Shown piece after piece: positions 3,779-43,306 of a stretch of DNA of 64,000 nt; the stretch's first letter is position 1; every line of letters begins with the position of its first letter. Below the pieces are notes generated by a model. It was given only the letters and a program-made list of their open reading frames with translations, was not told the DNA's origin and did no database searches. Position numbers and translations under genes: made by a program. Origin of the DNA: Mycolicibacterium confluentis (GTDB lineage: Bacteria > Actinomycetota > Actinomycetes > Mycobacteriales > Mycobacteriaceae); NCBI RefSeq assembly GCF_010729895.1, contig NZ_AP022612.1, forward strand, positions 5,332,001-5,396,000, read 5' to 3'.

Positions 3779-4033
3779 CGGCGCCCACATCACGATGTTC
3801 GACAGCTGACCCGGTTGTTCCAGGCGGAACTGGGCATCACTCCCGCACGCTATGTCGAACGGGTGCGCGTCGACATCGCCCGCGCCGCACTGGATGCCGG
3901 CCACTGCGTCGGCGACAGTGCCCGACGTGCCGGGTTCGGCAGCGCCGAGACGTTCCGACGGGTCTTCTCCAGCCAGCTTGGGGTTTCGCCGAAGGCGCAT
4001 CGGGATCGGTTCCGCACCGTGGCAAGTCACTGA
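3779..4033 (+). pseudogene. AraC/GlxA-type regulator, C-terminal fragment
   Basis: The frame ending at the TGA 4031-4033 encodes RQLTRLFQAELGITPARYVE, then RVRVDIARAALDAGH, then DSARRAGFGSAETFRRVF and QLGVSPKAHRDRF. This is the second helix-turn-helix half of the AraC family, most like GlxA/FtrA regulators. Only about 80 residues remain. Upstream of about 3795 the same frame becomes arginine-rich and loses similarity, while the first HTH and the ligand-binding or DJ-1/PfpI-like domain are missing. No credible start codon with a ribosome-binding site is present. It is therefore a truncated remnant. Confidence 0.65.
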
Positions 4034-4057
4034 GCGCGACACCTGATCGACGCGGCC

Positions 4058-25712: not shown

Positions 25713-25817
25713 GACGTCCGCCACCGGCGGCAGGTCGCGCCCGGTTGCGCGGCGATGTCATATTGGCCAACTACCATTCCTCTCCGACCCTGGCCGCCCC
25801 GACGGAGAGAACGAGTA

Positions 25818-27851
25818 GTGAGTTACACCGCCGCCGACATCACCGAGCTCGACGATGTCCAGCACACCCGCCTGCGGCCGGCGGTGAATCTCGGCCTGGA
25901 CGTCCTCAACACCGCCCTGCGCGAGATCGTCGACAACGCGATCGAAGAGGTCGCTGAACCCAGCCACGGCGGTTCGACCGTCACGATCACCCTGCACGCC
26001 GACGGATCGGTCAGTGTCGCCGACGACGGTCGCGGTCTTCCCGTCGACACCGACCCCGTGACCGGCAAGAACGGCATCGTCAAGACGCTCGGCACCGCCC
26101 GGGCGGGTGGCAAGTTCTCCGCACACGCCGACGCCGCAAGCACGGGCGCCGGCCTCAACGGCATCGGCGCCGCAGCCGCCGTGTTCATCTCGGCCCGCAC
26201 CGACGTGACGGTCCGCCGAGCCGGAAAGACCTACCTGCAGAGCTTCGGGGCCGGCTACCCCGGTGTCTTCGAGGGCGACGACTTCGATCCGAACGCCCCG
26301 TTCACCCGCGCAGACGCGCAGAAACTGCGCGGCGTCGGCAACCGCAAGCCCAACGCACACGGCACAGAAGTTCGCATCCTGTTCGACCCGGCCGTGGTCC
26401 CGGATTCGACCGTCGACATCGGCGAAGTGCTGCTGCGCGCGCACGCCGCGGCACGGATGTCTCCCGGCGTGCACCTGACCGTCGTCGACGAGGGCTGGCC
26501 TGGCGAGGAGGTTCCGCCGGCGCTGCTCGAGCCCTTCAGCGGACCGTGGGGCACCGACACCCTGCTGGACCTCATGTGCACGGCGGCCGGCACTCCCCTG
26601 CCCGAGATCCGCGCCGTCGTGGAGGGTCGTGGCGAGTACACGACTGGTCGGGGACCGACGCCGTTCCGGTGGTCGCTGACCGCGGGTCCGGCCGAACCGG
26701 TGACCATCGCCGCGTTCTGCAACACCGTGCGCACCCCCGGCGGCGGATCGCACCTGACCGCCGCGATCAAGGGACTGTCCGAGGCGTTGGCCGACCGCGC
26801 CTCCCGGATCCGCGATCTCGGCCTGGCCAAGGGTGAAGAAGGCCCGGAGCCACAGGATTTCGCGGCCGTCACCGCTTTGGCCGTGGATACCCGCGCGCCC
26901 GACGTGGCATGGGACTCCCAGGCCAAGACCGCGGTGTCGTCGCGGTCGCTGAACATGGCGATGGCCCCGGATGTGGCCCGCAGCGTCACCATCTGGGCGG
27001 CCAACCCCGCCAACACCGACACCGTCACGTTGTGGACGAAGCTGGCGCTCGAGTCCGCGCGGGCCCGCCGCAGTGCCGAGGGTGCGAAGGCCCGATCCCG
27101 CGCGGCATCGAAGGCCAAGGGCCTGGGGACCAACCTGTCGCTGCCACCGAAACTGTTGCCCAGCAGGGAAACCGGACGCGGATCCGGCGCTGAGCTGTTC
27201 CTCTGCGAGGGCGATTCGGCGCTGGGCACCATCAAGGCCGCGCGTGACGCCACCTTCCAGGCGGCCTTCCCCCTGAAAGGGAAGCCGCCGAATGTGTACG
27301 GATTCGCGCTGAGCAAGGCCCGAGTCAAGGACGAGTTCGACGCGATCGAACGCATCCTGGGCTGCGGGGTGCGCGACAGCTGCGATCCGGAACTGTGCCG
27401 GTACGACCGGATCCTGTTCGCCTCCGACGCCGACCCCGACGGTGGCAACATCAACTCGAGCCTGATCTCGATGTTCCTGGACTTCTACCGCCCGCTCGTC
27501 GAGGCCGGCATGGTCTATGTGACGCTGCCGCCACTGTTCGTGGTCAAGGCCGCCGATCAGCGGATCTACTGCCAGGACGAGTCCGAGCGCGATGCCGCGG
27601 TGGCCCAGTTGAAGGCCACCTCGAACCGCCGGGTCGAGGTGCAGCGCAACAAGGGTCTCGGTGAGATGGACGCCGACGACTTCTGGACCACCGTGCTGGA
27701 CCCACAGCGCCGCACGGTGATTCGGGTCCACCTCGATGACAGCGAGAAGAAGCTGCATCACACACTGTTCGGCGGGCCGCCGGAGGGCCGGCGCACGTGG
27801 ATGGCGGATGTCGCCTCCCGTGTCGACACCTCCGCGCTGGACCTGACGTAG
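25818..27851 (+). CDS. topoN: GyrB-like subunit of accessory type II topoisomerase
   Basis: About 677 residues from the GTG at 25818; the 63-bp upstream extension lacks a ribosome-binding site. The GHKL ATPase has EIVDNAIEE (Asp/Asn for Mg-ATP), DDGRGLPVD and a Gly-rich lid (GAGLNGIGAA). A transducer region follows, then the Toprim domain with EGDSALGTI and DADPDGGNI and the GyrB tail NKGLGEM. This is not the replication-locus gyrB, which sits beside recF. It matches the second gyrase-like enzyme described in M. smegmatis (TopoN with TopoM), reported to introduce positive supercoils. Its partner gene starts 19 bp downstream. Confidence 0.88.
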   Translation: MSYTAADITELDDVQHTRLRPAVNLGLDVLNTALREIVDNAIEEVAEPSHGGSTVTITLHADGSVSVADDGRGLPVDTDPVTGKNGIVKTLGTARAGGKFSAHADAASTGAGLNGIGAAAAVFISARTDVTVRRAGKTYLQSFGAGYPGVFEGDDFDPNAPFTRADAQKLRGVGNRKPNAHGTEVRILFDPAVVPDSTVDIGEVLLRAHAAARMSPGVHLTVVDEGWPGEEVPPALLEPFSGPWGTDTLLDLMCTAAGTPLPEIRAVVEGRGEYTTGRGPTPFRWSLTAGPAEPVTIAAFCNTVRTPGGGSHLTAAIKGLSEALADRASRIRDLGLAKGEEGPEPQDFAAVTALAVDTRAPDVAWDSQAKTAVSSRSLNMAMAPDVARSVTIWAANPANTDTVTLWTKLALESARARRSAEGAKARSRAASKAKGLGTNLSLPPKLLPSRETGRGSGAELFLCEGDSALGTIKAARDATFQAAFPLKGKPPNVYGFALSKARVKDEFDAIERILGCGVRDSCDPELCRYDRILFASDADPDGGNINSSLISMFLDFYRPLVEAGMVYVTLPPLFVVKAADQRIYCQDESERDAAVAQLKATSNRRVEVQRNKGLGEMDADDFWTTVLDPQRRTVIRVHLDDSEKKLHHTLFGGPPEGRRTWMADVASRVDTSALDLT

Positions 27852-27870: not shown

Positions 27871-30015
27871 GTGACCGCCACCCTGGATGTTCCTGAGCAG
27901 AACCCCGATATGGTGCTCGACCAGAGCGCCGACGACTACTGGAACCATTACCAGCTGACCTTCGCGCTCTACAGCGTCAGCGACCGCGCCATCCCGTCCG
28001 CGTATGACGGGCTCAAGCCGGGCCAGCGTCGTCTGCTCTACCAGATGCACGACTCCAAACTGCTGCCCGGCAACAAGCCGCAGAAGTCCTCGAAGGTGTG
28101 CTCGGCCGTCACCGGCAACCTGCACCCCCACGGCGGCGCGTCGATGTATGGCGCCGCGGCGCTGATGGCCGCCGACTTCCAGCGCGTGAAAGTCATTGAC
28201 GGACAAGGCGCTTTCCCGCGCATCCAGGGCGACATCCCCGCAGCCGACCGCTACACCGAGATGCGGTTGTCGGCCCCCGGCGCGGCGCTGACCGCCGAAC
28301 TCGACAGTCATGCGGTGCCGATGGTGCCGACCTTCGACGGTGAGTGGGTCGAACCGACGTGGCTCCCAGCCCAGTGGCCGGTTCTGCTGTGCAACGGTGC
28401 CGTCGGCATCGCCGAGGGGTGGGCCACCAAGGTGCCCGCGCACAATCCCCGCGAGGTCATGGCCGCCTGCCGGGCACTGCTGAAGACCCCCAACATGACC
28501 GACGACCGGTTGGTGAAGCTCATTCCGGGTCCCGACTGGGGTTCCGGAGCCTCGGTGATCGGCACCGCCGGACTGCGGGAGTACATCACCACGGGCAGGG
28601 GCCACTTCACGGTGCGCGGCACGGTGTCGGTCGAGGGCAAGAACTGCATCATCACCGAACTGCCGCCCGGTGTCGCGAGTAACACTGTGCAGGACCGTAT
28701 TCGGGCCCTGGTCGAGTCCGGTGAGATGTCCGGCGTGGCGGACATGTCGGACCTGACGGACCGCCGCAACGGACTGCGCATCGTCGTCACCGCCAAGCGC
28801 GGCCACAACGCCGAGCAGATCCGTGACCAACTGCTGGCCCTGACCCCGCTGGAGTCGACGTTCGCGGCCAGCCTGGTGGCACTCGACGAGAACCGCGTGC
28901 CGCGGTGGTGGTCGGTGCGCGAACTGATCGCCGCGTTCCTGCATCTGCGGGATTCGGTGGTGCTGCACCGCAGCGAGTACCGACTGGAGAAGGTCACCGC
29001 ACGCCGCCACCTGGTGGCCGGCCTGATGAAGATCCACCTGGACATCGACGCCGCGGTCGCGGTCATCCGGGGATCCGAGACCGTCGACGAGGCCCGTCAG
29101 GGTCTTCAGAAGCGGTTCTCGATCGATGCTGAACAGGCCGATTACGTTCTGGGACTGCAGCTTCGGCGGCTCACCAAGCTCGACGTCATCGAACTGCAGG
29201 CCGAAGCGGAGAAGCTGGACGCCGAGTTCGCCGCACTGTCCGAACTGGTGGCCAACCCCGATGCGCGCCGGAAGGTGATCGACCAGGAACTGGTCGAGAC
29301 CGCGAAGCTGTTCAAGGGTCCCGAGTACGACCGCCGCACCGTGCTGGACTTCGACGCCACCCCGGTGTCGTCCAGCGCCGACGACGACGGTCCGCGCGAG
29401 CGTAAGGTCAACGCGGCCTGGCGGCTTGATGACCGGGGTGTGTTCTCCGACAGCCACGGCGAACTGCTCACCTCGGGTCTGGGCTGGGCCGTGTGGACCG
29501 ACGGGCGGGTGAAGTTCACCAACGGCAATGGTCTGCCGTTCAAGATCCGCGACATCCCGGTGGCACCGGACATCACCGGACTGCTGCGCTCGGGGGTGTT
29601 GCCGGACGGGTATCACCTGGCGCTGGTGACCCGGCGCGGCAAGATTCTGCGCATCGACCCCGCGGCGGTGAACCCTCAGGGCGCGGCGGGCAACGGCGTG
29701 GCCGGGGTGAAGCTGGCCGCCGACGGTGACGAGGTCATCGCCGCGCTTCCCGTCTCCTGCGGCAACGGCGAGGCCATCCTGTCGGTGGCCGAAAAGAGTT
29801 GGAAGGTCACCGAAGTCGCCGACATCCCCGTCAAGGGTCGCGGTGGCGCCGGGGTCGGGTTCCACCCGTTCGTCAAGGGTGAGGACGCGCTGCTGGGGGC
29901 CGCGATCTCCCCGACCGGCTATGTCCGGGGCAAGAGGGCCGTGCGCGCCGAGAACCGAGCGAAGGCGTCCATCAAGGGCACCGGCGCCGACGTCGCACCC
30001 GCACCTGCGGAGTAG
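27871..30015 (+). CDS. topoM: GyrA-like subunit of accessory type II topoisomerase
   Basis: 714 residues. The breakage-reunion domain has QRRLLYQMHD, HPHGGASMYGAA and the catalytic Tyr in AADRYTEMRLS. NNGAVGIAEG-like GAVGIAEGWAT and a coiled-coil tower (QLRRLTKLDVIELQAE) follow. The C-terminal region contains several degenerate gyrase-type beta-pinwheel blades (GRVKFTNGNG, GKILRIDPAAV, GVAGVKLAADGD), shorter than in GyrA. It forms an A2B2 enzyme with the gene just upstream; overlapping transcription is likely. The canonical GyrA-box (QRRGGKG) was not seen. Confidence 0.88.
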   Translation: MTATLDVPEQNPDMVLDQSADDYWNHYQLTFALYSVSDRAIPSAYDGLKPGQRRLLYQMHDSKLLPGNKPQKSSKVCSAVTGNLHPHGGASMYGAAALMAADFQRVKVIDGQGAFPRIQGDIPAADRYTEMRLSAPGAALTAELDSHAVPMVPTFDGEWVEPTWLPAQWPVLLCNGAVGIAEGWATKVPAHNPREVMAACRALLKTPNMTDDRLVKLIPGPDWGSGASVIGTAGLREYITTGRGHFTVRGTVSVEGKNCIITELPPGVASNTVQDRIRALVESGEMSGVADMSDLTDRRNGLRIVVTAKRGHNAEQIRDQLLALTPLESTFAASLVALDENRVPRWWSVRELIAAFLHLRDSVVLHRSEYRLEKVTARRHLVAGLMKIHLDIDAAVAVIRGSETVDEARQGLQKRFSIDAEQADYVLGLQLRRLTKLDVIELQAEAEKLDAEFAALSELVANPDARRKVIDQELVETAKLFKGPEYDRRTVLDFDATPVSSSADDDGPRERKVNAAWRLDDRGVFSDSHGELLTSGLGWAVWTDGRVKFTNGNGLPFKIRDIPVAPDITGLLRSGVLPDGYHLALVTRRGKILRIDPAAVNPQGAAGNGVAGVKLAADGDEVIAALPVSCGNGEAILSVAEKSWKVTEVADIPVKGRGGAGVGFHPFVKGEDALLGAAISPTGYVRGKRAVRAENRAKASIKGTGADVAPAPAE

Positions 30016-30346: not shown

Positions 30347-31651
30347 TTGATCGGACATCGCAGTACTCGCTGGATACTGACGGCGACCGCCGTCGCACTG
30401 TTCTGCGTCCAGATCGACTTCTTCGCAGTCAATCTGGCGCTGCCGCGGATCGCCGCGGATCTGAACAGCAGCATCACCGACATGCGGTGGGTGGTCAGCA
30501 TCTACATGTTGACGTTGGGCGCCTTCATGGTGCCCGCGGGCCGCGTCGCGGACATCTTCGGCCGGCGACGCGTGCTGCTCTCCGGTATCGCGCTTTTCGC
30601 GGTGGCGTCGGTGCTGTGCGCGGTGGCCCCGACCGCGGCCGCGCTGGTGGGGTCCCGTGCACTGCAGGGTGTCGGGGCGGCGATGATCTTTCCGGTCTCC
30701 GTCAGCGTCTTGACCAACGCTTACCCAGCTGAGCGTTCGGGCCGTGCCATCGGTGTGGCCTACGGCATCGCCGGGCTCGGGAATGCGGCCGGGCCGTTGG
30801 TGGGCGGTGTGCTGACCGAGACCGTGGGATGGCGCGCGGTGTTCTGGCTGCTGGTGCCTTTCACGGTGATCTCACTGCTGATCGGCGCGCGCGCGATACC
30901 CGAAACGTTCGATGAAAGTGCGCCGCGCCGAATCGATGTGGGCGGTTTGGCGTTGATCATCACGGGGATCGGTCTGTTCACCCTGGTCTTCGATCGCGCA
31001 CCCACATGGGGCTGGCTGTCGGCGACGACCCTCGCCGCCGGCGTCGCCTCGGTCGGCCTGCTGGCCGCGTTCGTGAGCGTCGAGCGACGGACGCGCCACC
31101 CGCTGGTCGATGTGCGCCTGTTCGCCAACCGTGGCTTCGCAGTGCTCGTGATCGCCGGGACGGTCGCCAACGTCGCCTATGTGGTCACGGTCTTTCTCTC
31201 CACGCTGAACCTGCAGGACGTCCGTGGCCTCGATCCACTGACCGCGGGCCTGGTGTTCCTGGGGCCGTCGGTGGGTGCCGCTGCGGGAGGCACCCTCTCC
31301 GGCCGACTGCCGTCACGGCTCTCGCCCGTCACGGTCATGGGTGCAGGGTGCGTGGTTGCGGCGATATCCCTTGCCGCACTGTCTCTTTCCACCTCCTGGC
31401 CGCGGTACGTGATGGCACTGACCGCGTGCGGCTTCACCATGGGATTCGTGTACGCCTACACCACGGTCGCCACTCAAGCTGTGGTCGATCCGGCTCGGGC
31501 GGGCGAGGCGGCGGGGGTGACCCTCGCCCTGGCGTTGTTGGTGTCCGGGCTGGGAGTGCTCACCCGGTCCGCCACGGATCGAGATGACCTGCTTCAGGTG
31601 ACGCGCAACATCACGCACACACGCGGCAACGGAGTCGTATTCCAGCGATAA
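30347..31651 (+). CDS. MFS drug:H+ antiporter-like transporter (DHA2 type)
   Basis: About 434 residues with many membrane helices. MFS signatures include NLALPRIAADL (helix I end), GRVADIFGRRRVLL (loop 2-3, motif A), RALQGVGAAMIFPV (motif B) and GIAGLGNAAGPLVGGVL (motif C, antiporter). It belongs to the EmrB/QacA-type DHA2 branch, which normally has 14 helices and 450-500 residues. Here the last helix (ALALLVSGLGV) runs into a short polar tail (TRSATDRDDLLQV), so the C-terminus may be truncated. The TTG start at 30347 is weak, and the true start may differ. Confidence 0.82.
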   Translation: MIGHRSTRWILTATAVALFCVQIDFFAVNLALPRIAADLNSSITDMRWVVSIYMLTLGAFMVPAGRVADIFGRRRVLLSGIALFAVASVLCAVAPTAAALVGSRALQGVGAAMIFPVSVSVLTNAYPAERSGRAIGVAYGIAGLGNAAGPLVGGVLTETVGWRAVFWLLVPFTVISLLIGARAIPETFDESAPRRIDVGGLALIITGIGLFTLVFDRAPTWGWLSATTLAAGVASVGLLAAFVSVERRTRHPLVDVRLFANRGFAVLVIAGTVANVAYVVTVFLSTLNLQDVRGLDPLTAGLVFLGPSVGAAAGGTLSGRLPSRLSPVTVMGAGCVVAAISLAALSLSTSWPRYVMALTACGFTMGFVYAYTTVATQAVVDPARAGEAAGVTLALALLVSGLGVLTRSATDRDDLLQVTRNITHTRGNGVVFQR

Positions 31652-31729
31652 CCAACACGAAATGGGCCGGGCCTGTACTGGGATCAGTTCAGTCAGCCAG
31701 CCGAGTCACCCTGAAACCCGGAGCCCGCC

Positions 31730-32251
31730 ATGCCATTTGATGCGACCATTGCCGAGAATATCGCCACCTCGCTCGCCGAGATCCCGCACCCCTCGCTGCC
31801 CAAGGGCTCGAACCTCTACGGCGGCACCAAGGTGTTTCCCGATTACCAGGCCGAGGAGGGCGAGAGCTACTTCACCCTGGTCCACGGCATCGCGCACGAG
31901 TCTTCGGTGAGCTTCGTAGCGGTGCTGCAGGCCACCCGGGCGTTGCGCAAAGGTTTCGAATCGGCCATCTACTTCTACGGCCCCGGCGCCATCAACTGCC
32001 TGGCCACCCGCGGATTCCCCAAGACCGGCGACTCCGGCTTCCCCGGCGAACAGAACATCAACGATGCCCTGGCCACCTTCATCGGTGAAGGGGGCACCGT
32101 CTTCGCCTGCCGCTTCGGTCTCGCCCTGCACGGCGGTCGCGAGGAGGACCTCATCGCGGGCGTCATCCCCTGCCACCCGCTCGATGTCCAGGACGCGTTG
32201 ATCTACTACGCGCGCAAGGGTGCGATCATCAACTCCACCTACATGGTGTGA
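31730..32251 (+). CDS. MSMEG_0572/Sll0783-family nitrogen-starvation protein
   Basis: 173 residues, soluble, no signal; starts at ATG 31730 after CCCGGAG. Recognisable segments: HPSLPKGSNLYGGTKVFPDY near the N-terminus, HGIAHESSVSF, NCLATRGFP, and ALHGGREEDLIAGVIPCHPL. This family heads or belongs to the Nit1C-type nitrilase clusters. The Synechocystis member Sll0783 is induced by nitrogen starvation and needed for polyhydroxybutyrate accumulation; its biochemical role is unknown. Here it is the first gene of an eight-gene co-directional block (to 39176) and is 33 bp from the nitrilase gene. Confidence 0.88.
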   Translation: MPFDATIAENIATSLAEIPHPSLPKGSNLYGGTKVFPDYQAEEGESYFTLVHGIAHESSVSFVAVLQATRALRKGFESAIYFYGPGAINCLATRGFPKTGDSGFPGEQNINDALATFIGEGGTVFACRFGLALHGGREEDLIAGVIPCHPLDVQDALIYYARKGAIINSTYMV

Positions 32252-32284
32252 GTTTGGTTCTGGTGTGAGACAGAGGATTCCGCC

Positions 32285-33175
32285 ATGACGACTCTCGCCG
32301 CCGCGTCCGCGAACTTCACCAGGGAGCTCGACCAGAACTATGCAGTCATCGCCGCGCTGACCGATGAGGCCCGGGATCGCGGCGTGGACTTCCTCGCGCT
32401 GCCCGAGGCCGCCATCGGCGGCTACCTGTCATCGTTGGGCAATCACGGCGACACCGTGCGGGCCACCACCCGCTCACTGCCGCCCGCCATCCGCATCGAT
32501 GGACCCGAGATCGCGCGGGTGCAGCAACTCGCCGGAGACCTCGTCGTGGCGATCGGGTTCTGCGAACTCGCCGACGACGGCGAAACACGCTACAACGCCG
32601 CCGCACTGCTCGACGGCGGCCATGTCTACGGCGTGTACCGCAAGGTGCATCAGCCGTTGGGTGAGGGCATGTCGTATTCCGCGGGATCGCGCTACGACGT
32701 TCACGACACCCCGGCCGGCCGCATCGGGCTGCAGATCTGTTACGACAAAGCGTTTCCGGAAGCCGCTCGAATCATGGCGCTCGGCGGCGCTCAGATCATC
32801 GCCAGTCTGTCGGCCTGGCCCGCGGCTCGCACCGCCACCGCAGAGAATCTGCAGGACGACCGATGGACGTACCGGTTCAACCAGTTCGACATCGCCCGCG
32901 CTCTGGACAATCAGGTGTTCTGGTTGGCGGCAAACCAGTCCGGCACCTTCGGGTCGTTGCGCTACGTCGGCAACGCCAAGGTGGTCGATCCCGGCGGCAA
33001 CATCCTGGCCACGACCCTGCTGGGCAGCGGTATGGCGGTGGCCGACGTCGACATCGACGAGACATTCCGCACCATGCGGGCCGGCATGTTCCACCTGCGC
33101 GACCGGCGACCGGACGTCTACGGACCCCTGGTCGAGACCGACGCCACCCCGTGGGCGGATCTGGCCCATGCCTGA
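32285..33175 (+). CDS. Nitrilase-superfamily (carbon-nitrogen) hydrolase, triad intact
   Basis: 296 residues with the complete Glu-Lys-Cys triad of the superfamily: Glu in FLALPEAAIGGY (about residue 41), Lys in VYRKVHQP (about 121) and Cys in GLQICYDKAFPEA (about 154). Hydrolysis of a nitrile or amide C-N bond is expected. The sequence is strikingly similar along its length to the second nitrilase-like protein of the same cluster (37237-38082), indicating an old duplication. It overlaps the next gene by 8 bp. The sequence around Cys looks more amidase-like than classical nitrilase (CWEH/CWEN), so an amide or carbamoyl substrate is possible. Confidence 0.9.
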   Translation: MTTLAAASANFTRELDQNYAVIAALTDEARDRGVDFLALPEAAIGGYLSSLGNHGDTVRATTRSLPPAIRIDGPEIARVQQLAGDLVVAIGFCELADDGETRYNAAALLDGGHVYGVYRKVHQPLGEGMSYSAGSRYDVHDTPAGRIGLQICYDKAFPEAARIMALGGAQIIASLSAWPAARTATAENLQDDRWTYRFNQFDIARALDNQVFWLAANQSGTFGSLRYVGNAKVVDPGGNILATTLLGSGMAVADVDIDETFRTMRAGMFHLRDRRPDVYGPLVETDATPWADLAHA

Positions 33176-33464
33176 GATGACGTTCGACGTGCGCTGGCCC
33201 GACGGCAGTGTCCAGTCCTGCTACTCCCCCAGCCTGGTCATGCACGACTACCTGACCACCGGAGGCCGCTACACCGTCGCCGAGTTCCTCACCCGCTCCG
33301 GTCAGGCACTGCAGCAGGCCAGTGAGCGGGTACGGGCCAAGTACGGCTTCGTCTGTACCTCGGCCGCGGCCACCGCCGACCGGATCCGCCGGACCGCCAA
33401 CCGCTTTCCGGGCGATGCGGAGGTCGAGATCACCGCCATGCAACCCGAACCGGAGCGAACATGA
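33168..33464 (+). CDS. MSMEG_0570-family small nitrogen-starvation protein (98 aa)
   Basis: 98 residues from ATG 33168, overlapping the nitrilase stop; an alternative ATG lies at 33177. Segments TFDVRWPDGSVQSCYSPS and YTVAEFLTRSGQALQQAS match the small protein conserved in these clusters. The single Cys in QSCYSPS is a possible functional residue. No enzymatic motif is visible; a role as chaperone or carrier in the pathway is possible but speculative. Its stop overlaps the start of the flavoprotein gene (ATGA), showing translational coupling. Confidence 0.85.
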   Translation: MPEMTFDVRWPDGSVQSCYSPSLVMHDYLTTGGRYTVAEFLTRSGQALQQASERVRAKYGFVCTSAAATADRIRRTANRFPGDAEVEITAMQPEPERT

Positions 33465-34738
33465 CGTCCGCACATCACGTACCGGTCGCGATCGTCGGCG
33501 GCGGGCAGGCCGGTCTGTCCGTCAGCTGGTATCTCGGCCGCGCCGGCATCGAACACGTCGTCCTGGAGTCCCACACCCCGGTGCACGCATGGGCCGACAA
33601 CCGTTGGGACAACTTCACCCTGGTGACGCCGAACTGGCACTGTCAGCTGCCCGGTTACCCCTACGCAGGTTCCGACCCCGACGGATTCATGACCCGCGAC
33701 GAAGTCGTCGCGTGGTTGGCCGACTGGCTGGACACCTTCACCCCGCCGGTGCGGGCCCACACCCGGGTGACCAGGCTGCAGAACCGCCCCGAGGGCGGGT
33801 TCGAGCTCACATTGCAGACGTCCGCGGGCAGCGAAACTCTCACCTGCGAGAGTGCGGTGATCGCGACCGGGGGCTACCCGCTTCCGGTGATTCCGTCGTT
33901 CGCCGGCTCGCTGGACCCTGCAGTCGTCCAAATCCACTCCGAGCAGTACCGCAACCCCAGCCAGCTGCCAGACGGCGCCGTGCTGGTGGTCGGGACAGGG
34001 CAGTCCGGCACCCAGATCGCCGAGGATCTGCATCTGGCCGGTCGCCAAGTTCACCTCGCGGTCGGCAGCGCGCCCCGCGTGGCGCGCTTCTACCGCGGTC
34101 GGGACTGCATGACCTGGCTCGCCGAGATGGGCGTGTATGACCGCCCGGCCCAGCAGTATCCGGGCGGAAAGGCGGCGATCGAGAAGACCAATCACTATGT
34201 GACCGGGCGTGACGGTGGCCGGGATGTGGATCTGCGGCAGTTCGCGCTCGACGGGATGAAGCTCTACGGAACGCTGGCCGACGGCAGGGACTCCACGCTG
34301 CACTTTGACCCGAATCTGCGCGCGGCCCTGAATGCGGCCGATTCGGTGTACAACTCGATCTGCTCGGACATCGACGCCCACATCGAGCGCGAGCAGATCA
34401 GTGCGCCGCCGGCCACCCGGTACGCGCCGGTGTGGGAACCCGAAGCGGAGCCCATCAATGTGGACTTGGCGGCCGAGAACGTCACCAGCATCGTGTGGGC
34501 GATCGGCTACCGGCCCGACTATCGGTGGATCGAGGCCAGTGCGTTCGACGGCGGTGGTCGTCCCATGCAGACCCGCGGCATCACCGCGGTACCCGGCCTG
34601 AGCTTCATCGGCCTGCCCTGGATGCACACCTGGGGTTCAGGCCGATTCCTGGGGATCGACCGCGACGCCTCCCACATCGCCGCGACCCTCATCAGCGGTC
34701 ACCACGAGTCGGTGCTGCGGCTCGCCGTCGGGCACTGA
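33461..34738 (+). CDS. MSMEG_0569-family flavin-dependent oxidoreductase
   Basis: 425 residues. Two Rossmann dinucleotide-binding motifs are seen: FAD-type VAIVGGGQAGLSVSWYLG at the N-terminus and NADPH-type LVVGTGQSGTQIAEDL at about residue 180. VWAIGYRPDYRWI near the end closes the FAD site. The layout is that of flavin monooxygenases and related CzcO-like enzymes. In related Nit1C clusters this is the NitH-type oxygenase. It is coupled to the 98-aa protein upstream and lies 15 bp from the radical SAM gene, which has its own AAAAGGAG. Confidence 0.88.
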   Translation: MTSAHHVPVAIVGGGQAGLSVSWYLGRAGIEHVVLESHTPVHAWADNRWDNFTLVTPNWHCQLPGYPYAGSDPDGFMTRDEVVAWLADWLDTFTPPVRAHTRVTRLQNRPEGGFELTLQTSAGSETLTCESAVIATGGYPLPVIPSFAGSLDPAVVQIHSEQYRNPSQLPDGAVLVVGTGQSGTQIAEDLHLAGRQVHLAVGSAPRVARFYRGRDCMTWLAEMGVYDRPAQQYPGGKAAIEKTNHYVTGRDGGRDVDLRQFALDGMKLYGTLADGRDSTLHFDPNLRAALNAADSVYNSICSDIDAHIEREQISAPPATRYAPVWEPEAEPINVDLAAENVTSIVWAIGYRPDYRWIEASAFDGGGRPMQTRGITAVPGLSFIGLPWMHTWGSGRFLGIDRDASHIAATLISGHHESVLRLAVGH

Positions 34739-34753
34739 AAAGGAGACCGCGAG

Positions 34754-35809
34754 ATGTCTGCATCCACCCGAGTTGATCTGGCACTGCTGGGAATCCGCGG
34801 CCGGCCACCGGTCAGCCGGACCGCAGGCGCAGGACCGAGCGCCGACGGGCACCTGGTCATCGACGGCCTCAACGCCGCGATCCCGCGAAACCCCAACAGC
34901 CCCTTCGTCTTCGACGGCACCCGGGTGATTCTCGACGGCGAGGACACCGGGCTCGATGTCGAAGTCGTCGCTCGGCCGCACTTCTATGACCTGGTGACCC
35001 CCGATGGCGTGCCCTACGAGAAGCTGGCCCGCCTGCACGGCCGCAACGTCCTGGCCACCACCGTCGTTCAGACCTGCATCCGATACAGCGCCGACCAACG
35101 CTGCCGGTTCTGCACCATCGAGGAGTCGCTGCGCTCGGGCGCCACCACCGCCGTCAAACGTCCCGCCGAGCTCGCCGAGGTCGCCGCCGCTGCCGTTCGC
35201 CTCGACGGCGTGACCCAGATGGTCATGACCACTGGAACCTCGGCGGGCAGTGACCGCGGCGCCCGCCACCTCGCCCGGTGCGTGCGCGCCGTCAAGGCGG
35301 CGGTGCCGACGCTGCCGATCCAGGTGCAGTGCGAACCACCCGCCGATCCTGCGGTGCTGACCGAACTGCGGGAGGCCGGCGCCGACGCCATCGGCATCCA
35401 CATCGAATCCCTCGAAGAGGACGTCCGGCGTCGCTGGATGCCCGGAAAGGCCACCGTGTCGGTGGAGCGCTACCGAGACGCCTGGCGAGAGGCCGTCCGA
35501 GTGTTCGGCCGCAACCAGGTCTCGACCTACCTGCTCGTCGGACTCGGCGAGGACGCCGAGCAGATGATCAGCGGGGCCGCCGATCTCATCGAGATGGGCG
35601 TGTACCCATTCGTCGTCCCGTTCCGCCCGCAGCCGGGGTCGTTGGCGGTCGACGTCGATGGCGCGGCGGCGCCCGATGCCGCCGTTGTCGAGAAGGTCAG
35701 CCGCGAGGTCGCGCTGTTGCTGCGCGCTGCCGGGATGACCGGTGCCGACCAACGTGCGGGCTGCGCAGCCTGCGGCGCGTGCGGCGTGCTGCAGAACCTG
35801 GGCGCCTGA
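34754..35809 (+). CDS. MSMEG_0568-family radical SAM protein
   Basis: 351 residues. The SAM-type 4Fe-4S site is CIRYSADQRCRFC, i.e. CX8CX2C instead of the usual CX3CX2C; the GGE-like motif reads TTGTSAG. A second Cys cluster, CAACGAC, closes the protein (CxxCxxC), probably binding an auxiliary Fe-S cluster. A TIM-barrel-like middle includes VQCEPPADP and IGIHIESLEE. A radical transformation of the pathway substrate is expected; the chemistry is unknown. The stop overlaps the next start (TGATG). Confidence 0.88.
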   Translation: MSASTRVDLALLGIRGRPPVSRTAGAGPSADGHLVIDGLNAAIPRNPNSPFVFDGTRVILDGEDTGLDVEVVARPHFYDLVTPDGVPYEKLARLHGRNVLATTVVQTCIRYSADQRCRFCTIEESLRSGATTAVKRPAELAEVAAAAVRLDGVTQMVMTTGTSAGSDRGARHLARCVRAVKAAVPTLPIQVQCEPPADPAVLTELREAGADAIGIHIESLEEDVRRRWMPGKATVSVERYRDAWREAVRVFGRNQVSTYLLVGLGEDAEQMISGAADLIEMGVYPFVVPFRPQPGSLAVDVDGAAAPDAAVVEKVSREVALLLRAAGMTGADQRAGCAACGACGVLQNLGA

Positions 35810-37230
35810 TGATCCCGTTCACGGCCAGCGGTCACAGCGCCCCCGTCAGTTCGTCCATCCTCTGCGGGACACCGCGCCCGTCGGCGTCGTACCTGGTGAT
35901 CCGGGCCGAGAGCGCCTCGCAGATCGCCGGCTATCGGCAACTGCGCCATGACTCTTTCGTCACCGAGCAGGGGCTGTTCACCCGCACCGACCGCGACGAC
36001 ATCGACGACGACCCGCGCACCGTGGTGCTGGTGGCGAGCAGCCCCGAGGGCCGCCTCCTCGGCGGCGTCCGTCTGGCACCGGCCACAGCGACCGATCTCG
36101 GCTGGTGGACGGGCAGTCGGTTGGTGACCGACCCGGCGGTTCGCGCGAGCGGCGTCGGCCCGGCACTGGTCCGGGCGGCGTGCGCCTTCGCCGAGGCGTC
36201 GGGCGTGCTGCGCTTCGAGGCGACGGTGCAGCAGCGTTATGCCGCCCTATTCGACACGCTCGGCTGGCAGCGGGTGGGATCGCGCCGGGTGGCCGGCGTC
36301 GAACACGCCTGGATGCGCTGGCCGCTGGACCCGGTGCAGCGTGCCGCCGCTGCCACCAAGTCATTTCTGGGCTCGACCCTGGCGCCGCTGCGGCGGACTC
36401 CCGGTGGCCTGGGGCCGGCGGGTTTCGTCGGGGACGACGGCGTCCCGGTCGGCGGGACCGACCTGATCGCCGCCTGTGATGCCATCATCCCGTCGATGGT
36501 CGAACGGGATCCTGAATGGGCGGGCTGGTGTTCGGTGCTGGTCAACGTCAACGATCTGACCGCGATGGGCGCTGCGCCGGTGGGGCTGCTCGACGCTGTG
36601 GGTGCCCCCACCCGCGGCATCCTCGACCGGGTGATCTCCGGTGTCGCGGCGGCCTCGGCCGCCTGGCAGGTGCCCGTCCTGGGCGGACACACCCAACTCG
36701 GTGTCCCCGCCGCGCTGTCGGTGACCGCGCTGGGCCGCACCCGCGCACCGGTCCGTGCCGGCGGCGGCATCGTCGGCGACCCGATCCGGTTGACCGTCGA
36801 CACCACCGGTCGGTGGCGGCCGGGTTACCACGGGCGGCAATGGGATTCGACGAGTACGCGCAGCAGCGCGGACCTGGCGGCGATGACCACCCTGGTGGCA
36901 CGCTCGGCACCCCGGGCGGCCAAGGATGTCAGCATGGCCGGCATCGTCGGAACACTGGGGATGATGGCCGAAGCCTGCGGCACCGGTGCCGAACTGGAGG
37001 TGTCCACCGTGCCCCGCCCGGCGGACGCCGCAGTGGGTGACTGGCTGACCTGTTTTCCCGGCTACGCCATGTTGACCGCCGGCCCGCAGGCGCCCGCGGC
37101 GGCCCCACATAGTGTTGTCAACACCGAGTGTGGCTTTCTCACAAGAGATCTGGGTGTCCGGCTGCGCTGGCCCGACGGCGTGGTCACGTCAGCGCTCACA
37201 CCGGCGGTGACCGGTCTCGGATCGAGCTGA
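35809..37230 (+). CDS. Fused GNAT acetyltransferase-AIR synthase-like protein (MSMEG_0567)
   Basis: 473 residues from the ATG at 35809 that overlaps the radical SAM stop. Residues about 25-180 form a GNAT domain (YLVIRAESASQIAGYRQLRH, GVGPALVRAACAFAE, YAALFDTLGWQRVG). Residues about 190-470 form an AIR synthase/PurM-like ATP-dependent domain (GDDGVPVGGTDLIAA, VLVNVNDLTAMGAAPVGLLD, VLGGHTQLG). In cyanobacteria the two activities are separate neighbours (Sll0786, Sll0787), so here they are fused. PurM relatives activate an amide or formyl oxygen with ATP (PurM, PurL, SelD, HypE), and the GNAT domain would acylate an amine. The substrate is unknown. Confidence 0.88.
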   Translation: MIPFTASGHSAPVSSSILCGTPRPSASYLVIRAESASQIAGYRQLRHDSFVTEQGLFTRTDRDDIDDDPRTVVLVASSPEGRLLGGVRLAPATATDLGWWTGSRLVTDPAVRASGVGPALVRAACAFAEASGVLRFEATVQQRYAALFDTLGWQRVGSRRVAGVEHAWMRWPLDPVQRAAAATKSFLGSTLAPLRRTPGGLGPAGFVGDDGVPVGGTDLIAACDAIIPSMVERDPEWAGWCSVLVNVNDLTAMGAAPVGLLDAVGAPTRGILDRVISGVAAASAAWQVPVLGGHTQLGVPAALSVTALGRTRAPVRAGGGIVGDPIRLTVDTTGRWRPGYHGRQWDSTSTRSSADLAAMTTLVARSAPRAAKDVSMAGIVGTLGMMAEACGTGAELEVSTVPRPADAAVGDWLTCFPGYAMLTAGPQAPAAAPHSVVNTECGFLTRDLGVRLRWPDGVVTSALTPAVTGLGSS

Positions 37231-37236
37231 GCCACC

Positions 37237-38082
37237 ATGGCACCGGTGGTCCTGGCGGCGGTGGCGGCACACTTCGGCCGCGACGTGCCGCGCTGCGTGG
37301 ACAAGGCCGTCGGCATCATCGACACCGCCCGCCATGAGGGCGTTGACCTCCTGGTCCTTCCCGACGCCTGCCTGGGCGGGTATATCGGGGACTTCCAGGC
37401 GCCCGATCCCGACGACCCACCACCGGCGCTGGACCACGACGGACCGGAGATCGCCGCGATCGTCGCTGCGGCTGGACCGGCGACGGTGTGCCTGGGATAC
37501 GCCGAGGCCGCACCCGGCGGAGGCCGCTACAACACCGCTGTCTGCGTCACCGGCGACGGAGTGCTGGGCAGCTACCGCAAGGTGCATCAACCCGCCGGTG
37601 AAGCCCTGACCTACCTCGCCGGTGACCGGTTCTCCACCTTCGACACCCCGGTGGGCCGGCTCGGCATGCTCATCGACTACGACAAGACCTTCCCCGAAGC
37701 TGCCCGCACCCTGGCCGCTGCCGACGCCGGCATCATCGCCGCGCTGTCGGCGTGGCCGGCCAGCATCACCGACCGTGCCTCACGCCTGCCGGCCGACCGG
37801 CAGTCGCGACTGTTCGACCTCTACGACTGCGCGCGGGCCGCCGAGAACCAGGTGGTTTTGGTGTCGTCGAACCAAACCGGAGTGACGGGCAACCTGCGCT
37901 TCCTGGGCCAGGCCAAGATCGTCGGCCCCGGTGGGGACATCCTGGCCACCACCCGCGCCAAAGGTGGGCTGGCCAGAATCGAGATCGATGTCGATGGCGA
38001 GATCGCTCGTGCCCGAAAGGTGTTGAATCACTTGGCCGAACTGCGTCCCGACACCTACCAGAGCCGCGGTGAGTGCCGATGA
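37237..38082 (+). CDS. Nitrilase-superfamily protein with degenerate triad (predicted pseudoenzyme)
   Basis: 281 residues, closely similar to the active-looking paralogue at 32285-33175. The fold motifs are kept (DLLVLPDACLGGY, GSYRKVHQP, GRLGMLIDYDKTFPEAA, ALSAWPAS), but the catalytic Glu is Asp (LPDA) and the catalytic Cys is Asp (LIDYDK versus QICYDK). The Lys is kept. Without Cys no acyl-enzyme can form, so hydrolysis is not expected. It may be a structural or regulatory partner in a hetero-oligomer, since nitrilases assemble into dimers and larger forms. It starts 6 bp after the GNAT-AIRS gene and overlaps the glycosyltransferase by 4 bp. The M. smegmatis counterpart is MSMEG_0566. Confidence 0.88.
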   Translation: MAPVVLAAVAAHFGRDVPRCVDKAVGIIDTARHEGVDLLVLPDACLGGYIGDFQAPDPDDPPPALDHDGPEIAAIVAAAGPATVCLGYAEAAPGGGRYNTAVCVTGDGVLGSYRKVHQPAGEALTYLAGDRFSTFDTPVGRLGMLIDYDKTFPEAARTLAAADAGIIAALSAWPASITDRASRLPADRQSRLFDLYDCARAAENQVVLVSSNQTGVTGNLRFLGQAKIVGPGGDILATTRAKGGLARIEIDVDGEIARARKVLNHLAELRPDTYQSRGECR

Positions 38083-39176
38083 GCCTGCGCGTTGCGCTTC
38101 TCACCTACTCCACGAAGCCACGCGGCGGTGTGGTTCACACCCTCAACCTTGCCGAGGCGCTGGCCGCCCAGGGTGCCGATGTCACCGTGTGGTCATTGGC
38201 CCGCGCCGGGGACCGCGGGTTCTTCCGTCCGGTTTCTCCCGCTGTCTCGGTTCGACTCGTCGAGTTCACCGACGTCGCCGGGGACACCGTCACCGACCGC
38301 ATTGTCCGCTCCATCGAACTGCTCCGGCAGGCGTTCACGCCGCAGGACTACGACATCGTGCACGCGCAGGACTGCATCAGCGCCAACGCCGTCGGCAGCT
38401 GCATCCGCACCATCCACCACCTCGACGAGTTCACCACGCCGGTGCTCGCGCAGTGCCACGAGCGGGCGATCATCGAGCCCTACGCGCGGATCTGCGTCTC
38501 CGAGGCGGTGGCCGCCGAGGTGCGCGCGGGGTGGGCGCTGTCGCCCACGGTCATCCCCAACGGTGTTCAAGCGCAGCGGTTCACCGACGCAGCCGGTGAC
38601 TCACCGGAGGCCGTCGCCGCACGACGCCGCTGGCAGTCGCAACTGGGCCGCTACGTGCTGGCCGTCGGCGGCATCGAACCGCGCAAAGGCACGATCGATC
38701 TGGTCGACGCGATGGCGCTTCTGCGACGCCGAGATCCGCGGCTGACGCTGGTGATCGCCGGCGGTGAAACGTTGTTCGATTACCGCGACTACCGCACGGC
38801 CTTCGACCAACGGTGTCTCGAACACGGTGTCAGCCCGGTGATCCTCGGCGCCATCGAGGATTCCGACCTGCCTGCCCTGGTCGCCGGCTGCGCGGCGTTC
38901 GCGTTCCCTTCGACCAAGGAGGGATTCGGTCTCGCCGCGATGGAGGCGCTTGCCGCGGGCCGCCCCGTCGTCGGACGAGACTTACCGGTGCTGCGCGAAG
39001 TGTTCGGTGCCACCATCGGTTTCGCGACCGACGCTGCCGGCTTCGCCGAGGCGCTGACCGCAGCGCTCACACATTCCCAGGATCCGGCGGCCGGACGCGC
39101 GCTGGCGGCATCCAGGACCTGGGCCAGCGCCGCGCGAGCGCACCTCGACTTCTACCTGCGCCACTCTCGGCGCTGA
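38079..39176 (+). CDS. MSMEG_0565-family glycosyltransferase (GT4 type)
   Basis: 365 residues, last gene of the block. GT-B fold: N-terminal LLTYSTKPRGGVVHTLNLA, the linker VIPNGV, then the donor-binding half with VGGIEPRKG, GAIEDSDLPALVAG and the GT4 EX7E motif in PSTKEGFGLAAMEALAAGRP. Cytoplasmic, no membrane segment. Its presence suggests that the end product of the cluster is a glycoside or a glycosylated small molecule. Convergent with the aldehyde dehydrogenase, 10 bp apart. Confidence 0.9.
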   Translation: MSLRVALLTYSTKPRGGVVHTLNLAEALAAQGADVTVWSLARAGDRGFFRPVSPAVSVRLVEFTDVAGDTVTDRIVRSIELLRQAFTPQDYDIVHAQDCISANAVGSCIRTIHHLDEFTTPVLAQCHERAIIEPYARICVSEAVAAEVRAGWALSPTVIPNGVQAQRFTDAAGDSPEAVAARRRWQSQLGRYVLAVGGIEPRKGTIDLVDAMALLRRRDPRLTLVIAGGETLFDYRDYRTAFDQRCLEHGVSPVILGAIEDSDLPALVAGCAAFAFPSTKEGFGLAAMEALAAGRPVVGRDLPVLREVFGATIGFATDAAGFAEALTAALTHSQDPAAGRALAASRTWASAARAHLDFYLRHSRR

Positions 39177-40761: not shown

Positions 40762-40787
40762 TCGTTCCGTATTTGAACGAATGTTCA
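40762..40787. promoter_or_regulatory. Overlapping palindromes before the kinase operon
   Basis: TCGTTC-N7-GAACGA (40762-40767 and 40775-40780) overlaps TGAAC-GAAT-GTTCA (40774-40787). Both arm sets are perfect and sit 55-80 bp before ATG 40842, which also argues against a start as far upstream as 40773. Probable operator in the ALDH-kinase divergent region. Confidence 0.5.
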
Positions 40788-40841
40788 CATTTCGGAGGGA
40801 CGCACGCCGAGACCGTCCGCGACGACAACCGGAAGAGGGAC

Positions 40842-41963
40842 ATGACGCCGCACCGGACGGAGGCATCAGCCCCCCGTACGACCGACCACCTGGACAGCTT
40901 CTTCGACCGCGTGGTCGCGGACACCGGACTGAACGGAAACGGTGCGCCGATCAGCACCGGCGTGGTCGATGACCACCTGCGTCGCCACTTCAACCTCTCC
41001 GGTGAGCTCAAGCGGATTCCCACCGAGAAGGACGACACGTTCAAGCTCACGACCGACACCCGCCCCTACCTGGTGAAGGTCGCCGCGGCGGATGAGGATC
41101 CGGCGATAGTTGATCTGCAGAGTTCGGTGATGCGGTTCCTCGGCCAGAGTGCACCTGAACTTCCCGTTCCCGGACTTCTCAGCACCGCAGACGGCGCTGT
41201 TCACGTGGAGATCCCCTGCGGGACAGGTGAATCACCACGCCTGCTGCGGGTCATGGAGTTCATTGAGGGAAGCACGCTGAGCGAGGCCACGCCGTCGCAC
41301 TCCCAGTTGGAGGATGTCGGAGCGGCCTTGGCGAAGCTGTCGATCGCGCTGCGCCCCTTCAGCCACCCCCGCGAGGATCGACTGGTCCTGTGGGATCTGG
41401 CCAACTTCCACCGACTGGGCGAGTTGCGCCAGTACGTCAGGGAGGCCGAGCACCAGAGGCTGGCCGATCTGGTGTTCGCCCGCTACGAGGACATGGTCGT
41501 GCCGGTGCTGCCGGATCTCGAAACCCAGTTCGTCCACAACGATTTCAGCCCGTACAACACCATCGTCGACGACGCGTCCCCCGAGTACGTCACCGGCATC
41601 CTGGACTTCGGCGACTCCGGACGGTCGGCGGTCATCTTCGACGTGACCGTCGCGGTGGCCAATCAGATCGACAGCAGGCTGACCGACCCGTGGGCCCGGG
41701 CATTGTCGGTGTTGTCGGGATACCGACGCGTGCGCGACCTTCCCGATGACCACGTCGATCTGCTGGCCGCGACGGTGCCCGCCCGACTGGTATTGCGGGT
41801 GCTCATCGCCGGGTGGCGGGCTCAGCAGAACCCAGAACGACACGAGTACCTGATGAGCCATGCGGGGCGGGACTGGGTCGACCTCGACGCGATCATGAGC
41901 GTCCCGGTCAGCGACGTCGTCACCAAACTGCGCTCCACTGCAACGTCAGGAAGGTCCGCATGA
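40842..41963 (+). CDS. APH/choline-kinase-fold phosphotransferase
   Basis: About 373 residues from ATG 40842 (GGAAGAGGG upstream); the frame is open to 40773. The aminoglycoside/choline-kinase fold has the catalytic loop FVHNDFSPYNTI (Brenner HxDxxxxN) and metal-binding Asp in GILDFGDSG. It is coupled by an ATGA overlap to a class III aminotransferase-like gene of the phospholyase type. In animals and some bacteria the same pairing (hydroxylysine kinase plus 5-phosphohydroxylysine or phosphoethanolamine phospholyase) breaks down amino alcohols. It therefore probably phosphorylates an amino-alcohol substrate; antibiotic resistance is unlikely. Confidence 0.85.
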   Translation: MTPHRTEASAPRTTDHLDSFFDRVVADTGLNGNGAPISTGVVDDHLRRHFNLSGELKRIPTEKDDTFKLTTDTRPYLVKVAAADEDPAIVDLQSSVMRFLGQSAPELPVPGLLSTADGAVHVEIPCGTGESPRLLRVMEFIEGSTLSEATPSHSQLEDVGAALAKLSIALRPFSHPREDRLVLWDLANFHRLGELRQYVREAEHQRLADLVFARYEDMVVPVLPDLETQFVHNDFSPYNTIVDDASPEYVTGILDFGDSGRSAVIFDVTVAVANQIDSRLTDPWARALSVLSGYRRVRDLPDDHVDLLAATVPARLVLRVLIAGWRAQQNPERHEYLMSHAGRDWVDLDAIMSVPVSDVVTKLRSTATSGRSA

Positions 41964-43306
41964 CTCCCCCTCCCTCGGTCAACTCCTCCCGCGCGCCGAT
42001 GGTCAACGGCTTCGACCCGGCCGACGTCGACCGTCTCGATCCTCAAGTGGCGGAGCTGATTCAGCGCAGGTCGAAGGTGTTCGGTCCCGGCTACCGGCTC
42101 TTCTACCGGGAACCGCCCGAGTTCGTCCGCGGCGAGGCGGCACACCTGTTCGACGCCGACGGCAACGACTACCTGGACGTCTACAACAACGTCCCCTGCG
42201 TCGGCCACTGCCATCCGCACGTCGTGGAGGCAGTACATCGCCAGATGCAGACGTTGAACACCAACACCCGCTACGTCCAGCGCGCCGTCGTCGAGTACGC
42301 CGAACGCCTCGTCGCGAAGTTCCCAAGCGAGCTGACCCGGGCGACGTTCACCTGCACCGGATCCGAGGCCAACGACCTGGCGCTGCGACTGGCGAAGTAC
42401 GTCACGGGTAACGAAGGCGTCATCGTCACCGAGGGCGCCTACCACGGTCTGACCACCGAGGTCGCCGCCATCTCCCCGTCACTCGGGACCGGCACACCGC
42501 TGGGCCGCCATGTCCGCGTCGTCGCCGCACCCGACCGACGGACCGCGCCGGACGGCGACCTCGCTGCCGAGATGCGCCGCAGGGTCCGCGCCGCGATCGC
42601 GGACCTGCACCGGCACGGATACCGCCTGGCGGCATTCGTCGCCGACAGCATCTTCTCCAGCGACGGCGTGTTCGCCGATCCCGTCGGGTTCCTGCAGCCC
42701 ATCGTCGAGGAGGTCCACGCCGCTGGCGGGTTGTACATCGCCGACGAGGTGCAACCCGGCTTCTGCCGCACCGGCCAGTCCTGGTGGGGCTTCCAGCGCC
42801 ACCGCATCGTTCCCGACATCGTCACCATCGGCAAGCCGATGGGCAACGGCATCCCGATCGCCGCGGCAATCTTCCGTCCCGAACTCATCGAAGAGTTCGA
42901 CCGCAATGTCCGCTACTTCAACACCTTTGGCGGCAACACGGTGTCGATCGCCGCGGCCGGTGCGGTGCTCGACGTTCTCGAGTCCGAGGGGCTGCTGTCC
43001 CATGCGGATGAGGTCGGACAGGTGCTTCGCGGGTCTCTCGAGGGGCTGATCGACGGCCATTCCACCCTCGCCGAGGTTCGCGGCGCCGGGCTGTTCATCG
43101 GGGTCGACGTGGTCGACGGTGCCGGTGAACCGGACCCCGTCGGGGCCGCCGACATCGTCAACAGCCTGCGTGATCGGCGAATCCTGATCTCGGCCAGCGG
43201 ATTACACGGCAACGTCCTCAAGATCCGGCCGCCGCTGGTCTTCAACGACGCCGATGCCGACCGGTTCCTCACCGAGTTCGCCGCGGTCATCGACGGGCGG
43301 GACTGA
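41960..43306 (+). CDS. Class III aminotransferase-like PLP enzyme, phospholyase type
   Basis: 448 residues. Fold type I PLP enzyme: YLDVYNNVPCVGHCHPHVV, CTGSEANDLALRLAK, YHGLT, ADEVQPGFCRTG, Schiff-base Lys in TIGKPMGNGIP, and FNTFGGN. The YNNVPxVGHCHP region is typical of AGXT2L-type phospholyases (ethanolamine-phosphate, 5-phosphohydroxylysine), which eliminate phosphate and ammonia rather than transaminate. The kinase directly upstream would supply the phosphorylated substrate. The alternative is an ordinary omega-transaminase. The next gene starts 1 bp after its stop codon. Confidence 0.87.
   Translation: MTPPPSVNSSRAPMVNGFDPADVDRLDPQVAELIQRRSKVFGPGYRLFYREPPEFVRGEAAHLFDADGNDYLDVYNNVPCVGHCHPHVVEAVHRQMQTLNTNTRYVQRAVVEYAERLVAKFPSELTRATFTCTGSEANDLALRLAKYVTGNEGVIVTEGAYHGLTTEVAAISPSLGTGTPLGRHVRVVAAPDRRTAPDGDLAAEMRRRVRAAIADLHRHGYRLAAFVADSIFSSDGVFADPVGFLQPIVEEVHAAGGLYIADEVQPGFCRTGQSWWGFQRHRIVPDIVTIGKPMGNGIPIAAAIFRPELIEEFDRNVRYFNTFGGNTVSIAAAGAVLDVLESEGLLSHADEVGQVLRGSLEGLIDGHSTLAEVRGAGLFIGVDVVDGAGEPDPVGAADIVNSLRDRRILISASGLHGNVLKIRPPLVFNDADADRFLTEFAAVIDGRD

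Follow-up and report, generated by a model that had tools for sequence, protein, structure and literature searches.

A run of eight genes at positions 31730 to 39176 on the forward strand of a 64,000-nucleotide stretch of Mycolicibacterium confluentis DNA was analysed (hereafter the window; NCBI RefSeq assembly GCF_010729895.1, contig NZ_AP022612.1, positions 5,332,001 to 5,396,000). The block corresponds to MSMEG_0565-0572 of Mycolicibacterium smegmatis, published as the GlnR-dependent 'gpr' operon, and is itself not new. The evidence tips slightly towards reading it as the mycobacterial form of the Sll0783/Nit1C-like clusters, very probably a GlnR operon, which would turn an endogenous precursor into a small metabolite that contains nitrogen and is glycosylated, and in which one of two nitrilase-like paralogs, carrying Asp in place of the nucleophilic Cys, would be non-hydrolytic.

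All eight open reading frames (ORFs) were recovered from the ORF list and from model scans of the window. This confirmed the same-strand block with gaps of at most 33 bp that had been seen in a preliminary description of the DNA. The spacing between neighbours is +33, -8, -4, +15, -1, +6 and -4 bp in gene order, four pairs thus overlapping, if the small protein, the GNAT-AIR fusion and the GT4 start at the ATG codons at 33168, 35809 and 38079, respectively (a GTG at 38073 is also possible for the last). The family names proposed earlier were borne out as well, six proteins exceeding their NCBIfam cut-offs and the other two matching CN_hydrolase (PF00795). In window order (g1 to g8), the genes encode an MSMEG_0572/Sll0783 family protein (31730..32251; 173 aa; TIGR04044, 255 bits, cut-off 110), CN-hydrolase 1 with an intact triad E41, K120 and C152 (32285..33175; 296 aa; 133 bits), an MSMEG_0570 family small protein with an invariant C63 (33168..33464; 98 aa; TIGR04042, 123 bits, cut-off 80, scanned from 33177), an MSMEG_0569 family flavin-dependent oxidoreductase (33461..34738; 425 aa; TIGR04046, 635 bits, cut-off 498), an MSMEG_0568 family radical SAM enzyme (34754..35809; 351 aa; TIGR04043, 512 bits, cut-off 304), a GNAT-AIR synthase fusion of the MSMEG_0567 type in one chain (35809..37230; 473 aa; TIGR04045, 86 bits, cut-off 68, and TIGR04050, 477 bits, cut-off 312), CN-hydrolase 2 with Asp147 for the nucleophile Cys (37237..38082; 281 aa; 99 bits) and an MSMEG_0565 family GT4 glycosyltransferase (38079..39176; TIGR04047, 464 bits, cut-off 260).

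When bacterial and archaeal genomes were scanned for the radical SAM protein, 442 relatives were found, and the best 80 were analysed. All 80 are actinobacterial by title, Mycobacterium sp. ACS4331 being nearest to the window (97% on the radical SAM protein). The eight genes stand together in 71 of these 80 loci, so the grouping is more than chance. Six of the other nine loci are incomplete at a contig end. From the remaining three (L049, L077 and L079) the intact hydrolase and the flavoprotein are missing; in these genomes both genes lie side by side elsewhere, with no small gene between them. In L181, a second Sll0783 gene (3869-4381) heads this split-off hydrolase-flavoprotein unit, and the edge of such a gene is also seen in L182 (7178-7089). 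The 71 full loci display three gene orders (45, 20 and 6 loci), with g2-g3-g4, g5-g6 and g7-g8 moving as blocks. The block is accessory, the radical SAM gene being found in 3 of 18 same-genus genomes among those listed. As a separate observation, the radical SAM protein has matches in 515 plasmid records, of which 373 come from Klebsiella; those Klebsiella matches that were listed carry the annotation MSMEG_0568 family radical SAM.

An even draw across the class comprised 296 genomes, with the radical SAM protein over its cut-off in 44, a CN-hydrolase match at E <= 1e-60 in 40 and both in 39. The 44 radical-SAM-positive genomes yielded 33 untruncated clusters of the window's type, two of them (G637, G646) tallied over two contigs each. 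Left out were two genomes with clusters at contig ends (G519, G586), two of a deeper type (G574, G582), three of the same score range that were not fetched (G422, G441, G456) and four outside the fetch (G000, G074, G214, G298). Sll0783, the radical SAM enzyme, GNAT-AIR, the intact Glu-Lys-Cys (E-K-C) hydrolase and the GT4 were each present in 33/33 clusters. The Asp paralog was found in 22 (16 D-K-D and six G-K-D) and an MSMEG_0569-type flavoprotein in 23. For the small protein, tblastn gave matches in 10; it is a weak method for a query of this length. An Amidohydro_2 gene, named after four proteins of other loci, occurred in 28 clusters; for the window's genome, a search at E <= 1e-5, which had no positive control, gave none.

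Of the deeper type of cluster, neither G574 nor G582 (radical SAM below 400 bits) gave a CN-hydrolase match, and their glycosyltransferase matches were weak, below the 250-bit tblastn line. Ten loci of this type (L140-L149, two of them cut short) retain the radical SAM gene and mostly Sll0783, GNAT, AIR, an unknown protein of about 210-230 aa and Amidohydro_2. No CN-hydrolase was found at these loci. Whole-genome searches of eight such genomes gave a CN-hydrolase of the kind in question in one (G143, E 1e-68) and nothing better than 1e-23 in the rest. At 7 of the 10 loci a GT4 match lies some kb away, and all six that were tested belong to the MSMEG_0565 family (TIGR04047, 371-396 bits, cut-off 260). 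Since the GT4 is present in all 33 clusters and in the six tested deeper-type loci, which have no nitrilases, glycosylation would seem to belong to the core in Actinobacteria, with C-N hydrolysis as the variable part. The earlier proposal of a biosynthetic rather than purely catabolic role gains support from this distribution and from the starvation phenotypes described below; its second nitrilase-like protein, in contrast, has no hydrolase triad.

That protein, CN-hydrolase 2, carries Asp147 (codon 37675-37677, + strand) at the position of the nucleophile Cys and Asp43 (codon 37363-37365, + strand) at that of Glu, with Lys115 kept. D147 and K115 are found in 78/78 sequences (77 loci and the window), and position 43 is D in 75 and H in three, none thus showing the Glu-Lys-Cys triad (D-K-D in 75, H-K-D in three); six further clusters have Gly at the Glu position. 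The best 120 of 3515 database relatives of the window protein are all D-K-D. For a distant member from L136, which shares 58% identity with the window protein, the best 120 of 4135 relatives are likewise all x-K-D, x being D in 115, H in three, N in one and E in one, so that the nucleophile position is D in all 240 relatives of the two lists. In a tree, 35 Asp-type and 43 Cys-type sequences were split by one branch (100/94; root not determined), which fits a single nucleophile change followed by drift at the Glu position. The median ratio of non-synonymous to synonymous substitution rates (dN/dS), over 55 pairs of 11 close sequences, was 0.105 for the Asp paralog and 0.121 for the intact one.

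Because the catalytic Cys is missing, CN-hydrolase 2 should not be counted as performing C-N hydrolysis by the known mechanism. Judged from these residues, Glu-dependent catalysis by the Asp paralog is unlikely, which would leave binding, partnering or a mechanism based on Lys and Asp. With less than even confidence, we propose that the Asp paralog forms a widespread actinobacterial family, in which the nitrilase fold would have been duplicated within the cluster, given up hydrolysis and taken on a new role built on the invariant Lys-Asp pair, either as a new pathway catalyst or as an obligate partner steering the intact hydrolase. The same C-to-D change would be expected in MSMEG_0566 of M. 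smegmatis, whose DNA lies outside the named loci compared here. One genome (G423) has an Asp-type paralog (L252, from 9390 onward) without a radical SAM match, and the 19.5 kb fetched from it contain no further gene of the cluster.

The 'Nit1C-type' label first given to the block holds loosely. Nit1C clusters (Podar 2005, PMC1199592; Synechocystis sll0783-0787 and Pseudomonas), as far as the accessible part of that description goes, have Sll0783, radical SAM, GNAT, AIR, the small ORF6 and the flavoprotein in common with the window, but the defining subfamily-1 nitrilase is absent from it and two CN-hydrolases of another branch are found instead, one with Asp for Cys. Moreover, GNAT and AIR are fused in the window and a GT4 is present, which Podar reports for Burkholderia and Rubrivivax only, and the window order does not match the order ORF1-nitrilase-radical SAM-GNAT-AIR-ORF6 (PMC1199592). 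Against the Nit6803/NitC model (TIGR04048, cut-off 503 bits), CN-hydrolase 1 scored 31 bits and CN-hydrolase 2 gave no listed match. Since neither is a Nit6803/NitC protein, the block is not a strict Nit1C cluster. None of 396 genomes of the phylum had a TIGR04048 match over the cut-off (the best, G161, reached 484 bits, with no other cluster gene in 18.8 kb around it); the radical SAM protein was over its cut-off in 22 of them. The best sequence match of CN-hydrolase 1 is the N-carbamoylputrescine / N-carbamoyl amino acid amidase branch, whose triad it keeps, but with 104 bits it falls well short of the cut-off of 410 for that family, and CN-hydrolase 2 lacks the Cys and Glu of this branch. 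Five Proteobacterial loci all contain a NitC-type nitrilase by tblastn (annotated as Nit6803 in three); their GNAT and AIR matches are separate, and three of the loci have a GT4. In a tree, a very long branch sets the nitrilases of these loci apart from both proteins of the window.

These results bear on the alternative that the cluster scavenges nitrogen, releasing ammonia under nitrogen limitation from nitriles, cyanide adducts or amides that are either taken up or made by the cell. The link between Nit1C and cyanide assimilation reported in Pseudomonas (PMC9716671) speaks for it, as do the GlnR control and the constancy of the E-K-C hydrolase, intact in every cluster of the window's type and in 75/75 aligned sequences (74 loci and the window). 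The transfer of the Pseudomonas results is however weakened by the absence of the true Nit1C nitrilase from the locus and, over the cut-off, from the phylum genomes. None of the eight genes encodes a transporter, the MFS gene lying upstream, and it is difficult to see what acetyltransferase, ATP-using and GT4 steps would do in a catabolic route. The gpr phenotypes were obtained in N0 or N1/2 Sauton's medium, and cyanide or nitriles are not mentioned in the accessible part of that paper (PMC6039565). Scavenging is therefore considered unlikely.

The M. smegmatis operon was reported to depend on GlnR (PMC6039565), with a GlnR chromatin immunoprecipitation peak upstream of MSMEG_0572 and a 263-fold expression change (PMC3662644). 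Much of the check proposed in the preliminary description, an operon deletion and GlnR tests, is already published for this species (2013, 2018). In the window, a GlnR-box-like site, ATAACCAACACGAAAT (31648..31663, + strand), overlaps the stop codon of the upstream MFS gene and matches 6 of the 8 defined positions of GTNAC-N6-GNAAC. Ten bp after it, a possible -10 element, TGTACT (31674..31679, + strand), was picked out by eye, as was CTGTA(A/C)T at a similar place in other mycobacterial loci. From 81 upstream regions, 77 including that of the window were used (three were without the gene and one was too near a contig end); a site matching at least 7 of 8 positions was present in 68 of them against 15.4 expected from shuffles, the regions being related and not independent. 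By eye, the window's site falls within a block common to several mycobacterial loci (GTATTCC..ATAACCA...CG.AA), and this positional homology suggests a GlnR box. The block is very probably an operon under GlnR. It has the eight coupled genes, and probably the GlnR link, in common with the gpr operon (PMC6039565), after which the NCBIfam families of the window were named, and differs from it in the weak match of its box.

Deletion of gpr was reported to make cells less resistant to peroxide, to lower the NADPH/NADP ratio and to reduce biofilm growth when nitrogen is low (PMC6039565), and an sll0783 mutant of Synechocystis has a phenotype in nitrogen-starved medium together with a low NADPH/NADP ratio (PMC3901256). 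Both sets of phenotypes sustain the link to nitrogen starvation drawn in the preliminary description and, as they arise in nitrogen-starved medium, suggest an endogenous substrate. The lowered ratios also favour a redox device, as in the proposal that reductases of the cluster regenerate NADPH (Yang et al. 2018), with the other genes supporting them. In 10 of the 33 clusters, however, no MSMEG_0569-type flavoprotein was found, and among six ORFs from its slot, five match other FAD-binding families over the Pfam cut-off and one (L225) matches none. The AIR, GNAT and GT4 genes would also be left unexplained, and a monooxygenase-like flavin enzyme is expected to use NADPH, not to make it. Such a device appears decidedly improbable. 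The flavoprotein follows the Asp paralog, being present in 21 of 22 clusters with the paralog and in 2 of 11 without it (Fisher p 1.3e-5, uncorrected for descent, 10 of the 11 coming from one family, f91).

For M. smegmatis, it was further proposed that the TGA of the first nitrilase gene is read as selenocysteine (Sec), fusing the nitrilase to the flavoprotein (Yang et al. 2018; PMC6039565). For the genes analysed here, a single selenoprotein made of CN-hydrolase 1 and the flavoprotein by UGA read-through is given almost no credence. All 75 sequences indeed have TGA as the stop codon, and in 69 of them the two genes are in the same frame, but this frame is open to the flavoprotein in 28/75 only and closes in the window 150 nt after the TGA, which lies inside ATGCCTGAG, the start of the next gene. 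The window's genome has no selA match, its best selB match reaches 206 of 242 bits in a 407-codon frame matched over the first part only, and its best selD match 57 bits against a cut-off of 125. Three genomes have the two genes as a unit that lacks the small gene in between. The Sec fusion cannot hold in the window's genome, where it is excluded in distinction to the gpr operon; nor is such a fusion general, M. smegmatis itself being outside the comparison.

The individual proteins display conserved features. In the Sll0783-family protein C127 is invariant (14/14 aligned) and coincides by eye with what we take to be the Cys of DsrE proteins. Its structure model is poor (mean predicted local distance difference test score, pLDDT, of 52) and its best PDB sequence match insignificant (E 0.75); a DsrE/YchN fold was assigned to the Sll0783-type protein in the literature (PMC1199592, PMC3901256). 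The small protein was modelled by AlphaFold2 with a mean pLDDT of 95, and its MPEM start is also found in Proteobacteria. Two GxGQxG motifs are conserved in 75 flavoprotein sequences. The radical SAM enzyme combines CX8CX2C with a C-terminal CX2CX2C, the six Cys (108, 117, 120, 337, 340 and 343) being present in 91/91 sequences, and the GT4 shows GGIEPRKG in 76/76 sequences and EGFGLAA in every pattern listed. The nearest solved structures of the AIR part by sequence are ThiL and then HypE. The selenophosphate synthetase label of MSMEG_0567 was rejected, as the SelD model gave 29.9 bits against a cut-off of 125 and no invariant Cys precedes G208-D209-D210 (21 aligned); SelD proteins carry a catalytic Cys or Sec before the GDD motif.

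Biosynthesis of a glycosylated metabolite is favoured, though not shown; a cyanide-trapping or signalling role of the product, as suggested in the preliminary description, is hypothetical. In the proposed pathway, the GNAT domain would acylate an amine and the AIR domain of the same chain would then use ATP to activate the new amide; HypE, PurL and PurM activate amide oxygens with ATP. Modification of the skeleton would fall to the radical SAM enzyme and the flavoprotein, and attachment of a sugar to the GT4. Cleavage of a single C-N bond (amide or carbamoyl) by the intact E-K-C hydrolase would be a tailoring reaction specific to the lineage. The Asp paralog would have ceased to hydrolyse; as Lys and Asp are kept and the Glu position is free to vary, binding of the pathway substrate or association with the intact hydrolase is its more likely role. 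Loss of the product would lower NADPH/NADP and thereby cause peroxide sensitivity.

Several points weigh against this reading. To our knowledge no substrate, product or activity is known for the block, and the order of the steps is guessed. A literature search found no product of the cluster, which was described in 2005 without known function (PMC1199592), and no report of metabolomes or of growth on cyanide was found in the accessible published work on the M. smegmatis operon. Proteobacterial relatives carry a true nitrilase, the Pseudomonas cluster being the one tied to cyanide assimilation (PMC9716671). Glycosylation is not universal: two of the five Proteobacterial loci (L083, L085) show no GT4, nor was a GT4 match found in L138 (19 kb fetched) or in the deeper-type loci L140 and L142. 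The Asp paralog is missing in 11 of the 33 clusters and hence not essential to the core. In the closest pair (window and L001) its dN/dS is 0.144 versus 0.042 for the intact paralog; by either dN/dS figure, it does not appear to be decaying freely. The window's own GlnR box is weak, 6 of 8 being the score that shuffles usually give.

The block is flanked by the MFS transporter gene upstream and by an aldehyde dehydrogenase gene downstream on the opposite strand. Just upstream of the MFS gene lie GyrB-like (25755-27851, + strand) and GyrA-like (27871-30015, + strand) type II topoisomerase genes, possibly encoding an additional topoisomerase. Further downstream, an APH-type kinase ORF (40773-41963, + strand) and a class III aminotransferase gene (41813-43306, + strand) were seen.

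New in this analysis are the Asp-for-Cys paralog family, the two-paralog structure of the cluster, the actinobacterial pattern of a core GT4 with variable hydrolases, and the rejection of the selenoprotein reading for this genome. The cluster ties nitrogen starvation to redox state in cyanobacteria and mycobacteria, and the recurrent actinobacterial set (Sll0783, radical SAM, GNAT, AIR and GT4, with variable hydrolases) narrows the targets for assays. A conserved protein of the nitrilase fold without its nucleophile gives a direct test of a role in the pathway.

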